This document shows, piece after piece, positions 9,964-20,097 of a stretch of 22,920 nucleotides of DNA; positions within the stretch are counted from its first letter, which is position 1; each line of letters opens with the position of its first letter. This stretch comes from a virus. The notes under the pieces are model-generated. The model was not told the origin of the DNA, did not search any database, and was given only the letters and a program-made list of their open reading frames with translations. The stretch is taken from IMG/VR virus record IMGVR_UViG_3300040806_000922, positions 1 to 22,920 of that record; one strand, 5' to 3'. The translations under genes were made by a program, and so were the position numbers.

Positions 9964-10365
9964 ATGGCTAATACCGCAGGCCGCGACTTTGTTCTGGCCA
10001 AAAACAGCACTACCATCGCATCGGTTCGCTCCAAGTCTGTGACCTGGAACGGCAACCCGATTGATGTGACCAACGACGACGACGATGGGGCCACCACCTA
10101 TCTCGCTGACACCTTTGCAAATACCACGCTGGAAATCAGCGTCGAAGGTCTGACCGACGATGACGTTCTTTCCGATCTGGCTTTTGCCACTGGCGACAGC
10201 GCAAAGCATCTGTCGGATATTACGCTGACCCGCGCGAACGGCGATGCGATTTCCGGCACCTTCATCCTGACCAGCTACCAGGAGACCGGGCAGTATGAGG
10301 ACGCCGTGACCTTCACCGCGACCCTTGTGCGTAGCGGCATCCACACCTGGACGCCGTCCGTCTGA
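9964..10365 (+). CDS. Major tail (tube) protein, TP901-1 type
   Basis: This encodes 133 residues. The N-terminus NTAGRDFVLAKN and the segment VTWNGNPIDVTNDDDDGATTYLADTFANTTLEISVEGLTDDDVL are typical of the TP901-1-like tail tube family, with the acidic loop following the GNPIDVTN strand. ANGDAISGTFILTSYQETGQYEDAVTFTATLVRSG is the conserved C-terminal half, with the YEDAVTF element seen across the family. The protein stacks as hexameric rings to build the tube along which DNA travels. The strong leader, and its position before the chaperone and tape measure genes, agree with this call. Confidence 0.92.
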   Translation: MANTAGRDFVLAKNSTTIASVRSKSVTWNGNPIDVTNDDDDGATTYLADTFANTTLEISVEGLTDDDVLSDLAFATGDSAKHLSDITLTRANGDAISGTFILTSYQETGQYEDAVTFTATLVRSGIHTWTPSV

Positions 10366-10754
10366 TGAAGGGCTTTGATGACATCGTGCTTGCTTGGGGC
10401 GGTGAGGAATACACCGTCCCGGCAGATCGGCAGCTTGAATTGATCATGCGTGTCGAGGATGGCCTTATCGCAGGCAAGGACCGTCAGGCTTTCCAGGTGC
10501 TTGTGCAGCGCAGCGGCCCGCCCGTTGCCCTGATCGGCAAGGTCTTTGCCGATGCGCTTATCTATGCGGGCGCGAAGGTGACGCATGTCGAGGTCGTGCG
10601 GGAAATCCAATCGGCAATCCGGCGCGGCGAGGGCGGTGTTTACGCGAAGATCGCGGACAAACTGTCTGAAATCCTTGGCGTTATCGAAGCCCCTGCCACG
10701 GACGAGGTGGGAAACGCAAAGGCGGGAAAGCCGAAAGACTCCGAGGCGGCTTAG
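10365..10754 (+). CDS. Tail assembly chaperone, short form (gpG-like)
   Basis: This encodes 129 residues and starts in a TGATG overlap with the tail tube gene. The first part (GFDDIVLAWGGEEYTVPADRQLELIMRVEDGLI) resembles the GTA-type tail chaperone or tube-associated family, with a short beta domain followed by helices. The gene occupies the classical place between the tube and tape measure genes, where lambda has G and GT. The last residues are read from an Ala/Lys/Asp-rich tail that contains the slippery sequence. Most ribosomes should end here at 10754, giving the short form. Confidence 0.8.
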   Translation: MKGFDDIVLAWGGEEYTVPADRQLELIMRVEDGLIAGKDRQAFQVLVQRSGPPVALIGKVFADALIYAGAKVTHVEVVREIQSAIRRGEGGVYAKIADKLSEILGVIEAPATDEVGNAKAGKPKDSEAA

Positions 10755-10942
10755 TCCGCAATATCCACCGCGCGTTTATCGGCGCGCAGTGGGTGCAGCC
10801 GCTTGATTTCTGGCGGCTGCGTCCCGGCGAGGTCTGGATGATCTGGGAAGCCCACAAGCCCCGCGAGGGCAACGGGCAAACAGATTTCGGGCGTCTGTAT
10901 GACTTGCTAAAGGAAAATAAGAATGGCGCAAGCGGTCGGTGA
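10365..10942 (+). CDS. Tail assembly chaperone, -1 frameshift product (gpGT-like)
   Basis: After the slip at 10724-10730 the ribosome would leave the short form after K122 and continue from 10730 in the -1 frame to a TGA at 10940-10942. The product has 192 residues. The -1 frame has no stop between 10682 and 10940. The extra 70 residues include FIGAQWVQPLDFWRLRPGEV and a following WMIWEAHKP. This is the DFWxLxPxE pattern seen in the second half of tail chaperones of this kind. No start with a ribosome binding site is visible for this half alone. The extension overlaps the tape measure start by 20 bases. In lambda the fused form recruits the tube protein to the tape measure. Confidence 0.85.
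10724..10730 (+). promoter_or_regulatory. Programmed -1 frameshift site, G GGA AAG
   Basis: In the chaperone reading frame the bases are split as G GGA AAG, the same heptamer and phase as the lambda G-T site. Slippage gives GGG AAA in the -1 frame. The zero-frame stop is 22 bases downstream. No clear downstream pseudoknot is needed by analogy with lambda, and I see only a GCGCG/CGCGC stem about 40 bases further on. Confidence 0.88.
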
Positions 10943-13151
10943 CGTTGTCGTCGCCTTGCGGGCTGACATTAGCCCGTTCCAGCAAGGTATGCAGCAAGCT
11001 ACGCGGTCGATGCGGACTGTGGAGCAGCGCGGGCAGGCGATGGGGTCGGCGCTTTCTGGTGCGGCGGGGAATGTCGCTAACCTGACGACATCGCTGAACC
11101 GCGCCAAGGGGCAGATGACCGCTGTTCAGGCGCGCATCAATAACCTTGTTGGCGTCACGGATCGGCTTTCTGGGTCTGCGCGGGCCAGTGCCGATGCTTT
11201 CCGGCAATTCGATCAGGCGCGGGCGCAGGTTGATGCCCTGCGGTCGTCATATGACCCGATGTTTGCCGCGTCGAAGCGTTACGAGGCGGCGGTTGACCAG
11301 CTAAACAACGCCCTCAGCCTCGGGGTCATCAAGCAACAGGAATATGAGACAGCCCTAGAGCAATTGGGGCGGTCTTATCTTACGGCAGAGGGGCAGGCGC
11401 AGGCGTTCGGGCGCAGTATGCAAGGCGCAACGGCCCACACGACAAACCTGATGTTCCAGTTCCAGGACATCGGGATGATGCTGGCAGCGGGGCAAAGCCC
11501 GCTTATGCTGGCGATGCAGCAGGGCACGCAGGTCAGCGGCATATTCCAGCAGATGCGCAACAGCGGCCAGAGCGCTTTCCGGGGCATTATCGGCGGTTTG
11601 GGCGCGATGGTTAGCCCCATGTCGCTGCTGACCATCGGGACGATTGCAGGCGGCGCGGCCTTGGCGCAGTGGGGCATGTCTGCGCTTGGTGCGCGGGACA
11701 ACGCGGCCAGCCTTGAAGACTCGATGGACGCCCTGAATACGGCGTTTAATACGTTCGAGCAGAATGCCGACATCGCGCAGACAAGCATAGTCGAGCTTTA
11801 CGGGCAATTCGGCGCATTCGCGGAGCAAATCCAGCAGACCGCGCGGCTGATGACGACGCTCGGCCTTGATGCCGCGATGGATGAAACGCGCAATGCCATT
11901 GTCGCGGTGCGCGCACCGCTTGAAAACATTAACACGCTGTTCCGCCAGTTGGGTGAAGCCCAGGATTACCTTGCAAGGCAGCAAGAACTCGGCGCGACCA
12001 GCCAGCAGATTTTCGACGCGCAGCAGAACGTTCAAGACCTGACAGATGACCTTGAGTCGGCGGCGGACGCGCTTGGCATGTCCGTGACGCAGGCGCGTCT
12101 TATGTCGGCACAATTTGACCGCCTGCAAGCCGCGAATGGCCCCGCAGAAGTGGCGGAAGCCGCTGCCGCAATTCTGCGCCATTTCGAGCGCATCCGCGCC
12201 CAAACCGGGGCGCTGCCGGAAGAGTTCCGGGTTATTGCGGAGAATTTGAGCGCTGTCCAACAGCGCGCGGCAAGTGCGGCGAATGTCCTCAATATAATGA
12301 GCGACACCGACTTGAGCAGCCTGACGGCGCAGGCGGCGGCATTGGCTGAGCAGCTTGGGATTAGTGCCGACGAGGCCCTTCGCCTACTGCGGAACATGTC
12401 TGGCGCTGGTGCGGGACGTGGTGCTTGGGGAATGCCGACGGGCGACCCGATATTCGACACCACCCCGGAGGACGTACCTGCTGGCGGTGGTGGCGGTGGC
12501 GGCGGCGGTCGTGACTTTGCCGCCGAGTTTGAGGCGCTGCAAACGCAGTTGATGACGGAAACCGAGCGCGTCCAGCTTGAATATGAAACCCGGCTGGAAA
12601 ACCTGCGCGAGTTCCGGGCGCAGCGCGTAGCGACGGAAGAAGAGTTCAACGAACTTGAGCGGCGCATCAACGCCGACCATGCAAACCAGATGCGTGATCT
12701 GGAATTGCAGGGCCAGAACGCGCGGCTTTCCGTTGTTAGCGGCATGATGGGCGACCTGGCAACGATCCTTGAGGCGGGCGGCAACCGCAACCTTGAGATC
12801 GTGCGCGGGTTCAAGATCGCGGAGGCGCTGATCTCTGGATACCAAGCGGCTGTTGACGCTTGGCAGCAGGGTATGCGCCAAGGCGGGCCTGCCGTGGCGG
12901 CGCTTTATACGGCGGGGTCGCTGGCCAAGACGGGCGCGCTGATCGCGCAGATGAAGTCAAGCAGCCGTGGCGGCGGCGTGGCCGCAGGTGGCGGCGCTGT
13001 CGCGGCCAACAGCACCGCAGCCCCGCAGGTCAGCCGCAACGTGGCGATCCAGCTAACGGGCGGCGATATGTTCTCGCGCGACCAGGTTATCCAATTGATT
13101 AACTCGATCAACGAAGCTGTCGAGGACGGAAGCATCGTGAGGCTCGTATGA
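10923..13151 (+). CDS. Tail length tape measure protein
   Basis: This 742-residue protein sets tail length and is the scaffold for tube assembly. It begins with MAQAVGDVVVALRADISPFQQGM, the usual opening of the TMP family, followed by long Ala/Gln-rich helices. LMFQFQDIGMMLAAGQSPLMLAMQQGTQ (about 175-202) is the signature of the prophage tape measure family (TMP_2). A hydrophobic stretch at about 218-250 (SPMSLLTIGTIAGGAALAQWG) is likely the membrane-inserting part used at DNA entry. A run of nine glycines (521-529) separates the main helical ruler from a charged coiled-coil region (about 533-600). By the common 0.15 nm per residue rule a tail near 110 nm would be expected. No lytic enzyme domain is visible. 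AAAGGAAA serves as ribosome binding site. Confidence 0.93.
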   Translation: MAQAVGDVVVALRADISPFQQGMQQATRSMRTVEQRGQAMGSALSGAAGNVANLTTSLNRAKGQMTAVQARINNLVGVTDRLSGSARASADAFRQFDQARAQVDALRSSYDPMFAASKRYEAAVDQLNNALSLGVIKQQEYETALEQLGRSYLTAEGQAQAFGRSMQGATAHTTNLMFQFQDIGMMLAAGQSPLMLAMQQGTQVSGIFQQMRNSGQSAFRGIIGGLGAMVSPMSLLTIGTIAGGAALAQWGMSALGARDNAASLEDSMDALNTAFNTFEQNADIAQTSIVELYGQFGAFAEQIQQTARLMTTLGLDAAMDETRNAIVAVRAPLENINTLFRQLGEAQDYLARQQELGATSQQIFDAQQNVQDLTDDLESAADALGMSVTQARLMSAQFDRLQAANGPAEVAEAAAAILRHFERIRAQTGALPEEFRVIAENLSAVQQRAASAANVLNIMSDTDLSSLTAQAAALAEQLGISADEALRLLRNMSGAGAGRGAWGMPTGDPIFDTTPEDVPAGGGGGGGGGRDFAAEFEALQTQLMTETERVQLEYETRLENLREFRAQRVATEEEFNELERRINADHANQMRDLELQGQNARLSVVSGMMGDLATILEAGGNRNLEIVRGFKIAEALISGYQAAVDAWQQGMRQGGPAVAALYTAGSLAKTGALIAQMKSSSRGGGVAAGGGAVAANSTAAPQVSRNVAIQLTGGDMFSRDQVIQLINSINEAVEDGSIVRLV

Positions 13152-16865: not shown

Positions 16866-19568
16866 ATGCGTGATATCGTTTCCCCCCTGATGGGGCTGCG
16901 CTCGCCGTTTGGCGGGCGTGTTGACCAATACAAGGCGGGGGGCTTCCGGCCCACGCTTGTCGCGGATATGACGCGGGACTATTACCGCAGCACGTCGCGC
17001 CAGACCTTCGACGACCTGTTTACCCATTCCCGCCTTGGCAATGCCACGATGGTGGACTCTGACGGGCTGCTGAAGTGGGGGCCGCATAACCTGCAAGACT
17101 ACTCTGAAGACCTTGCAAGTACGTCGGCCTCTGTGTCAAACGTTACAATTTCAAGCAATGTCGCGACTGCACCTGACGGGTCTGCTACGGCGGATAAGCT
17201 GGTTTCATATAACGGCACGGGGGTCACACAGTGGATAAGATTTTTGCGTCTTGGCCCGTCTGATGTTGACTCTGTTTGGCGGATTGCCGCGAAGGCCGAT
17301 GGCTTCCGGTATATTACCATCGGTTATTCAAATACTGGATCGTATAACGCAGAATATGATCTGCAAAATGGCGTTGTCTCTGCATCACCTGCCGTTGGTA
17401 ATTCCACAGCAAGCATTACTGAGATTGGCGATGGTTGGTATTGGCTGGAATATGCTTACAACCACGCTGGATCAATTATGTTCATCTCAACTTATGGCTC
17501 CTCTTCCGGCGTTGCGTTAGGTGGCGCGGATACTTCTATTGTTGGTGATGGCTCGTCTGGCGTTTTGCTCTGGGGCAACCATCAATACCGCAGTGACCTT
17601 GGCGGCATGGCCCCTGTGCCCCCTGACGCCCGTGTTGCAGGCAGCACCACCTATGTGCCCACGACCTCGACCGCGAAGTATCTGCCCCGGCGGCATAACC
17701 ACGTCTACAACGGCACCGCTTGGGTTGACGCGGGCACCCTGATCGAGACCGAGGCGCGGACGAACTTGGTGACGTATTCGGAAGTTATGTCCACCAGTTT
17801 CACGGTCACATCAAACGCCACCATCTCTGACGGCTCTGGGTTCTCGACGGTGACAGATAATGCTGTTAACGACGAACATTTCGTCATGGCCTCAAATGTT
17901 TTTACCCCAGATGGCGCGGCGAGAACTTGGGCTGTTGATGTGAAAGGCGGGTCGGCCCGCTACGCCGTGATCTCCCACGCTAATACCTTGTCCTCTACCC
18001 TAAACACATACATCTTCGACACCACGTCCGGTGTGTTTACGGCAACAACCAGTGACCCGGCCTATGTCATTACAGGCTCTTACTTCGCGATCCCTCTGGG
18101 TGACGGATGGTATAGGATTGGGTTTTCGTCTGACCTCAACAGCACATCCTATGATAACTTTATCATCGGGATTTCCTCCGGGCCAGATTTTGCAGATAGG
18201 ACATATGCAGGTTCTGGCGATACTGTTCTGTTCCGTCGCCCCCAGCTCGAAGCAGCCTCCACCCCCTCCAGCTACATCCCGACCAGTGGCAGCACCGTCA
18301 CCCGCGCGGCAGACACCAGCGGCCTGACGATCCCTGCGTATTCCACCACCCGCACCACGGGCAGCGAGCTTGTGACGAATGGGACGTTTGATAGTGATGT
18401 CAGTGGGTGGACGGATGGCTCTGGTGCGGGCGGATCAATTTCGTGGAATGCGTCTGGGTATATAGACCTTGTGAACTCAACGGGTGTCGCAAGAACAAAC
18501 CAATCGTTTGCGACTGTCGTGGGTAAAACCTATATTGCTACCGTTGAAAAGGTCGCAAACTCCTCCGGGATAAACATTGGCACCACCGTAGGCGCGGGGG
18601 CATCGAATGGTGACATTTACATTGGGGCCTATAATGCCGTCAATGAAGTTATTGTGTTCGTTGCGACTTCGACAACAACTTACATAGGCGCATATAACAG
18701 TAGTGCGGGAGTGACCGCCTCCATCGACAACATCTCCGTCAAGGAGGCCGCGCGCATCGCCCCGTGGCCCACCCCCCGCGTGATTGGGGAGGAGCTGGTG
18801 ACGAATGGGGGGTTTGACGCCGACAGCGATTGGACGAAGGGGGCTGGCTGGACGATCAGTGGTGGGGTGGCAACTAAGGCCGCAGGGACTGCATCATTGA
18901 TCTCGCAATCGCCTGGGCTGTCCCTTGGAAAAGTTTATCAGGTTTCGTTTACAGTATCGGGCGGAACCGCTGGCACGATAAAAGCATACGTTGGCTCCGG
19001 TGGTGCAGGGACGACCGTTTCTGCTAACGGGACTTATACACAACAGGTCGTCTGTCAATCGAGCCTCCTGTTTTCCATGTATGCTGACGCCACATTCGAC
19101 GGCTCCATCGACAACATCTCCGTCAAGGAAATCGACCCCCTGTCCGTCAGCATCCAGATGGAGGGCACGATGACTTACGCGGATACGAACCAAGCAGCAG
19201 AAGCAGAGTTTTTCCACTGGCAGGCTGACACAAATAACCGCATCCAATCGTTCCTGAGAACGAACGTCTCACCCAACGATGCGCGCTTTCAGCAAGGGGC
19301 GGCTGGTGTCTTTGATACGGTAGACGGTGGCACCTACTCCCCCGGCGTCAACGTCCCCTTCAACATCGCCAGCCGCCACGGGTCTACCTTCGTCAACGGG
19401 GCTGTAGGGGGGACGGCTTTAACTGCCGACACAACGCCGACAGCCCTGCCCGACTTGTCTTCGACAGACCTTCAGATCGCCTATGACTTCATGGGCAACA
19501 TCGAGCAGGTTCGCATCTGGACGGTAGACATCGGGGATACTGGTATTGCGGAGGCAAGCAATGGTTGA
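16866..19568 (+). CDS. Large modular tail protein with repeated carbohydrate-binding-like domains
   Basis: This 900-residue protein begins with IVSPLMGLRSPFGG, a virion-docking type start. Several modules follow. Two head-spike/lectin-like modules (about 75-245 and 299-482) each open with NL..YSE. The first carries DGWYWLEY, the second DGWYRIGF and a closing QLEAASTPSSYIPTSG. Two related CBM-like modules (about 500-627 and 641-755) each start with ELVTNG.FD and end with SIDNISVKE. A LamG-like end (about 757-890) contains FNIASRHGSTFVNGAVGG and IEQVRIW. Lectin-like modules of this sort bind surface glycans in other phages, so a receptor-binding or tail-fibre role is likely. GC content varies between modules, a sign of module exchange. 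GAGGTGG is the ribosome binding site, and the HNH-AP2 gene overlaps the end. Confidence 0.75.
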   Translation: MRDIVSPLMGLRSPFGGRVDQYKAGGFRPTLVADMTRDYYRSTSRQTFDDLFTHSRLGNATMVDSDGLLKWGPHNLQDYSEDLASTSASVSNVTISSNVATAPDGSATADKLVSYNGTGVTQWIRFLRLGPSDVDSVWRIAAKADGFRYITIGYSNTGSYNAEYDLQNGVVSASPAVGNSTASITEIGDGWYWLEYAYNHAGSIMFISTYGSSSGVALGGADTSIVGDGSSGVLLWGNHQYRSDLGGMAPVPPDARVAGSTTYVPTTSTAKYLPRRHNHVYNGTAWVDAGTLIETEARTNLVTYSEVMSTSFTVTSNATISDGSGFSTVTDNAVNDEHFVMASNVFTPDGAARTWAVDVKGGSARYAVISHANTLSSTLNTYIFDTTSGVFTATTSDPAYVITGSYFAIPLGDGWYRIGFSSDLNSTSYDNFIIGISSGPDFADRTYAGSGDTVLFRRPQLEAASTPSSYIPTSGSTVTRAADTSGLTIPAYSTTRTTGSELVTNGTFDSDVSGWTDGSGAGGSISWNASGYIDLVNSTGVARTNQSFATVVGKTYIATVEKVANSSGINIGTTVGAGASNGDIYIGAYNAVNEVIVFVATSTTTYIGAYNSSAGVTASIDNISVKEAARIAPWPTPRVIGEELVTNGGFDADSDWTKGAGWTISGGVATKAAGTASLISQSPGLSLGKVYQVSFTVSGGTAGTIKAYVGSGGAGTTVSANGTYTQQVVCQSSLLFSMYADATFDGSIDNISVKEIDPLSVSIQMEGTMTYADTNQAAEAEFFHWQADTNNRIQSFLRTNVSPNDARFQQGAAGVFDTVDGGTYSPGVNVPFNIASRHGSTFVNGAVGGTALTADTTPTALPDLSSTDLQIAYDFMGNIEQVRIWTVDIGDTGIAEASNG
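18719..19129 (+). repeat. 27-base direct repeat within the modular tail gene
   Basis: A 27-base sequence at 18719-18745 recurs without change at 19103-19129. Both copies encode the end of the CBM-like modules, with SIDNISVKE in each. The rest of the two modules is much less alike at the DNA level, so the identity points to recent duplication, gene conversion or recombination at this junction. Confidence 0.85.
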
Positions 19569-20097
19569 CGCATGCAAACTGCCAGACATCTTTGACTACA
19601 GCCCAGAGACGGGAAAACTGTTCTGGAGAAGGCGATCCGAAAACGTAGACCCGCGTTCACAGCAGAGAAAGTTGTTTAATGCGCGGTTCGCGGGGAAGGA
19701 GGCGTTCACAGCCAAAAACTCTGATGGGTATTTTTCTGGCAAACTGCTTGGCGCGTCCATGAAGGCTCATGTTGTGGTCTGGGCGTATTACTACGGCGAA
19801 TGGCCTGATGGGGAAATTGACCACATTGACGGGGATCGTGGCAACAACCGGATCGAAAATCTCCGTTGTGTTGATAAGTCCACGAACCAGAGAAACGCAT
19901 CCATCAGAGTAGATAACACCAGCGGGCAAGTCGGGGTGACCTTTAACAAAGCATCTGGGCGCTGGCGGGCAAGAATAAACCGCAACGGTCAGCGAGTGTT
20001 CATCGGCTCTTTTGTTAGATTCGAAGATGCCGTAACCGCGCGCAAGGATGCAGAAGCTGAACTCGGCTACCATGAAAACCACGGGAGAGCAGCATGA
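19561..20097 (+). CDS. HNH endonuclease with AP2 domain (homing type)
   Basis: This encodes 178 residues from the ATG at 19561, with GGAGG at 19550-19554. An in-frame TTG at 19546 lies before that site and is unlikely. The N-terminal part resembles the start of free-standing HNH homing enzymes (LPDIFDYSPETGKLFWRRR). The core AHVVVWAYYYGEWPDGEIDHIDGD with NNRIENLR follows (residues 69-102; H70, D87, H88, N100). The C-terminal AP2-like DNA-binding domain (about 118-174) contains NTSGQVGVTFNKASGRWRARI and FVRFEDAVTARKDAE. Such genes are mobile and cut DNA at alleles lacking them. The gene is AT-richer than its neighbours, and it overlaps both the preceding tail gene (8 bases) and the next gene (ATGA). 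Confidence 0.88.
   Translation: MVDACKLPDIFDYSPETGKLFWRRRSENVDPRSQQRKLFNARFAGKEAFTAKNSDGYFSGKLLGASMKAHVVVWAYYYGEWPDGEIDHIDGDRGNNRIENLRCVDKSTNQRNASIRVDNTSGQVGVTFNKASGRWRARINRNGQRVFIGSFVRFEDAVTARKDAEAELGYHENHGRAA

Follow-up and report, generated by a model that had tools for sequence, protein, structure and literature searches.

A probable -1 programmed frameshift in the tail assembly chaperone gene of a metagenomic phage contig, as judged from its relatives

Phage lambda makes its tail assembly chaperone in two versions, the short gpG and, less often, the frameshifted gpGT, and tailed phages have counterparts of this pair (Levin 1993; Xu, Hendrix and Duda 2004; as reviewed in PMC5009743). Of the two portions, G binds the tape measure and T binds the major tail protein (PMC5009743). 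The phiCbK-like Caulobacter phages have AAAAAAC as their slippery site, with GGGAAAC in Colossus (PMC3556154), and frameshifted chaperones are already on record from phages of Rhodobacter capsulatus (PMC8601537). The difficulty posed by second halves that lack a start codon has also been discussed (PMC10885494). Based on very strong comparative evidence we propose that a -1 programmed ribosomal frameshift very likely lets one start codon serve two tail assembly chaperones in the IMG/VR virus record IMGVR_UViG_3300040806_000922.

The chaperone gene and its -1-frame extension

The window, i.e. the whole stretch of 22,920 bases analysed here, carries a siphovirus-like structural module with genes for TerL, the portal, a prohead protease, an HK97-type capsid protein, head-tail connectors and the major tail protein, followed by a 129-aa ORF and the tape measure gene. 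This order puts a two-part chaperone after the major tail protein gene and ahead of the tape measure gene, as is typical of frameshifted tail chaperones. Two HNH endonuclease ORFs are also present in the window, at 1433-1921 (upstream of the terminase genes) and at 19546-20097 (after the tail genes). The features of the chaperone region are:

9964..10365, + strand: major tail (tube) protein gene, 5' neighbour of the chaperone (PF06199 Phage_tail_2, 2.7e-7; phrog_1407, 7.7e-13)
10365..10754, + strand: zero-frame tail assembly chaperone ORF, 129-aa short form (ORF call; family alignments; AlphaFold2)
10709..10715, + strand: G GGA AAC, second in-phase heptamer, possible auxiliary site or chance (phase)
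10724..10730, + strand: G GGA AAG, likely -1 slippery heptamer, in phase (phase; conservation; FW spacing)
10730..10942, + strand: -1-frame extension, C-terminal domain, 70 aa plus stop (P-x-x-FW-x-L-x-PGE motif, FW at 10808-10813)
10923..13151, + strand: tail tape measure protein gene (phrog_19487, tail length tape measure, 1.2e-39)

The chaperone ORF consists of an N domain (approximately residues 1-105) and a disordered tail. AlphaFold2 models the short form with a mean pLDDT of 83, confidently predicting an N domain of two strands followed by helices, while residues 110-129, within which the likely slip site lies, score below 50; the C-terminal domain is modelled as helical, at lower confidence than the N domain.

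A previous sequence-only reading had proposed that G GGA AAG stands in the right phase and that the -1 frame is open beyond it. Both points are borne out: the zero-frame codons at 10724-10730 read GCG GGA AAG, and the -1 frame runs from 10670, just downstream of the preceding stop, to a TGA at 10940-10942, encoding ...GKAERLRGGLVRNIHRAFIGAQWVQPLDFWRLRPGEVWMIWEAHKPREGNGQTDFGRLYDLLKENKNGASGR and overlapping the tape measure start (ATG at 10923) by the 20 bases noted in that reading. Its further statement that the second half has no start codon applies to the conserved part; in-frame candidates occur later, namely GTG 10793, the first ATG, GTG or TTG past the slip site and 21 codons into the extension, and ATG 10838, which lies past the FW motif. 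Past the zero-frame stop the -1 frame is free of stops and, whichever relative is compared with the window, its translation is the best conserved of the frames; the differences from the close relative L014 fall 15, 7 and 34 times at codon positions 1, 2 and 3 of the -1 frame, a third-position bias. The extension, with a consensus of about LVRxLYxxxVGxGWVSPxEFWRLxPGEVWWI, is conserved as a protein and has no start of its own.

Conservation of the slippery site and the -1 frame

Relatives, numbered here as loci, were gathered by several routes. Queries with the chaperone and with the extension retrieved L001/L017 (69% identical, with G GGA AAG only) and L003/L021 (47% identical, with A AAA AAG at the equivalent place). 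Scanning with the major tail protein, a query that can have no bias toward the heptamer, recovered L014-L022; all complete chaperones in this set have an extension in the -1 frame and a site in the right phase, which is canonical except in L019 and L020 (G GAA AAG). The loci fetched solely through the major tail protein (L014, L015, L016, L017, L018, L019 and L021) all possess the -1 frame and an in-phase candidate site, the heptamers at the equivalent place in loci fetched in this way being GGGAAAG, AAAAAAG, AAAAAAA and GGAAAAG. The -1 frame, whose loss in close relatives would by the sequence-only reading's own test refute the frameshift, is retained in them. A scan with the chaperone N domain gave 63 loci, nearly all of which combine a slippery site with an FW extension in the -1 frame. 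An alignment of eight major tail proteins was too diverse to serve as a scan query, tblastn of the fusion against phage records gave a single non-significant match, and two scans of bacterial genome contigs returned zero relatives.

The same layout is seen in the isolated phages GJ44, Pan4, PB15, P12026, 1N2-2 and SL25, which have homologous major tail proteins. In the deposited records of isolated phages (L007-L013) the second half appears as a separate short CDS or is missing, with no frameshift product; in Idiomarinaceae phage 1N2-2 the region of the C-terminal half bears no annotated gene. Gene finders miss such a hidden half, as the sequence-only reading suggested.

For statistical analysis the loci, mostly fetched regardless of heptamer although several (L032-L037) were picked by their extension, were thinned to 44 with N-domain identity below 70%, and the null model replaced the overlap's codons by synonymous ones drawn according to the usage of the contig in question. 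An in-phase X XXA AA[A/G/C] is found in the overlap of 36 of the 44 loci against 6.55 expected (P ~5e-32, with shared ancestry only partly removed), and by phase such heptamers number 41 in phase versus 4 and 7 in the other two. The eight remaining loci comprise five with G GAA AAG (L008, L019, L035, L037 and L070), one with G GGG GAG (L069), one with A AAC CCT (L096), these non-canonical sites having been spotted post hoc, and L011 (ctOK67), with an ATG overlapping the chaperone stop. In the last of these (L011:3263-3454) the C-terminal domain thus has its own ATG, which suggests coupling, not frameshifting, in that lineage. In all 44 loci the -1 frame carries an FW-type C-terminal domain, usually 23-32 codons past the site, and the distance from site to FW motif (27.4 codons, SD 3.7) varies less than that from the zero-frame stop to the motif (15.4, SD 7.8). 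Between site and motif 22 of the 44 have no ATG, GTG or TTG, and 30 have no ATG; in L092 and L094 the FW codons even lie upstream of the zero-frame stop. Folding of the downstream RNA revealed no consistent stimulator (window z-score ~0, family mean -0.65). Strong downstream hairpins were observed at two of the G GAA AAG loci, L035 and L037.

The G GAA AAG heptamer takes the place of the relatives' G GGA AAG or A AAA AAG in five loci whose overlap has no canonical heptamer:

L008:3216, L019:3764, L035:2968, L037:2962: G GAA AAG
L070, in phase, 30 bases ahead of the zero-frame stop: G GAA AAG

On a weakly supported tree its presence in these five lineages amounts to 4 parsimony changes. We consider it somewhat more probable than the converse that the site drifts among G GGA AAG, A AAA AAG, C CCA AAG, G GGA AAC and G GAA AAG at one aligned place, in which case G GAA AAG would be a working natural -1 site, with tRNA-Glu re-pairing on GGA by a middle-position U.G pair. 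For GGGGGAA, a comparable shift of tRNA-Glu onto GGA through G:U re-pairing has been discussed (PMC10885494); our literature search on G GAA AAG in frameshifting turned up no work bearing on bacteria or phages.

The proposed frameshift and competing readings

We posit that most ribosomes would terminate at 10752-10754 and release the 129-aa short protein, while a minority would slip at G GGA AAG (10724-10730), where the tRNAs on GGA and AAG would re-pair on GGG and AAA. Slipped ribosomes would then translate the -1 frame to 10942, giving a 192-aa fusion with an extra 70-aa domain that has no start of its own. We infer such slippage in the host, at a rate leaving the fusion as the minor product, and by analogy with lambda gpG/gpGT the tail-assembly roles may be envisaged as follows: binding of the tape measure protein would fall to the N domain common to both forms and recruitment of major tail protein subunits to the rare C-terminal domain, and neither form would remain in the finished tail.

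The overlap also contains G GGA AAC (10709-10715), 15 bases upstream of G GGA AAG and absent from the sequence-only reading; under the synonymous-codon null the chance of any in-phase heptamer in the window's overlap is 0.07. We regard 10724-10730 as the likely favoured slip site, with 10709-10715 as a possible auxiliary one, because the bases cGGGAAAG are invariant across the window and its closest relatives, L014 and L017, and because G_GGA_AAG ranks, along with A_AAA_AAG and C_CCA_AAG, among the top three -1 heptamers by efficiency in E. coli measurements (PMC4066793). All three occur in the chaperone family. It is unlikely, though deserving of some weight, that the frameshift is real but takes place mainly or also at G GGA AAC, which would shift the junction by a few residues: this heptamer is in phase inside the open -1 frame, is the sole in-phase site in about ten more distant relatives (e.g. 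L079, L081, L090 and L097) and has the sequence reported for Colossus (PMC3556154). Yet the stretch around it is unconserved and the heptamer is absent from L014 and L017, both of which retain G GGA AAG; its distance to the FW motif would be 31 codons, against the 26 that separate G GGA AAG from the motif in the window, L014 and L017 alike; and G_GG.A_AA.C is called a low-efficiency site in E. coli (PMC4066793).

The C-terminal half might instead be a separate protein, whose translation would begin past the zero-frame stop, through coupling or re-initiation, at a start codon that is internal or non-standard. Such a reading could draw on L011, where the ATG overlapping the stop (ATGA) is annotated as a separate start, and on the in-frame GTG or ATG ahead of the FW motif in some loci, the window's GTG 10793 among them, from which a short internal product could arise. 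It is nonetheless very improbable, as half of the 44 loci offer no such codon between site and motif, conserved residues in the window, L014 and L017 lie upstream of every possible start, the FW codons of L092 and L094 precede the zero-frame stop, and the in-phase heptamers would be left unexplained. The window being a single metagenomic contig, an assembly or sequencing indel could in principle have split one long ORF, but the identical frame break recurs in tens of independent contigs and in GJ44, Pan4, PB15, P12026, 1N2-2 and SL25, which rules out sequencing error and renders this explanation negligible. The programmed frameshift is our preferred reading.

Relation to known chaperone families

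Neither half of the window's chaperone gave an informative match when scanned directly against Pfam and PHROG, lambda G and T included. A search of a viral structure library gave N15 GT only weakly (E 0.22, prob 0.20) and otherwise mostly unnamed viral proteins and weak chaperone matches, and neither a sequence search of solved structures nor Foldseek against the PDB returned anything meaningful; neither sequence nor fold places the window's protein in the lambda gpG/gpT family. The description of the extension as a gpT-type half holds for position and mechanism, but does not extend to detectable sequence homology with lambda gpT. The relatives are more informative: 3 of 15 zero-frame relatives match GTA-gp10 (PF11836 Phage_TAC_11; best 8.8e-8), the window's own protein being below threshold, and 8 of 16 second halves match Phage_TAC_6 (PF09550; best 4.3e-7), the window's extension again being below threshold. 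Comparison of the window group with the isolate group by hhalign gives a prob of 99 for the zero-frame part and 98.5 for the extension. Via these relatives, the window halves appear to resemble GTA-gp10 and Phage_TAC_6, their nearest named families.

Very probably, many uncultured phages, and several isolates that are otherwise annotated, make their GTA-gp10-like chaperones as frameshift fusions. This adds a missed half-gene to the phage tail module and corrects its annotation, and it provides a natural series of interchangeable slippery sites, one of them non-canonical, that is suited to reporter testing.

The locus is a newly documented example of a known phage frameshift mechanism and no new kind of system. 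The proposed mechanism matches that of lambda gpG/gpGT; the GTA-gp10/Phage_TAC_6 pair is matched by its relatives, whereas the window halves themselves reach no Pfam threshold. The phiCbK-like Caulobacter phages (gp93/gp94; PMC3556154) likewise have a -1 frameshift ahead of the tape measure gene, but with a heptamer unlike the window's favoured site; the likeness is drawn from this layout.
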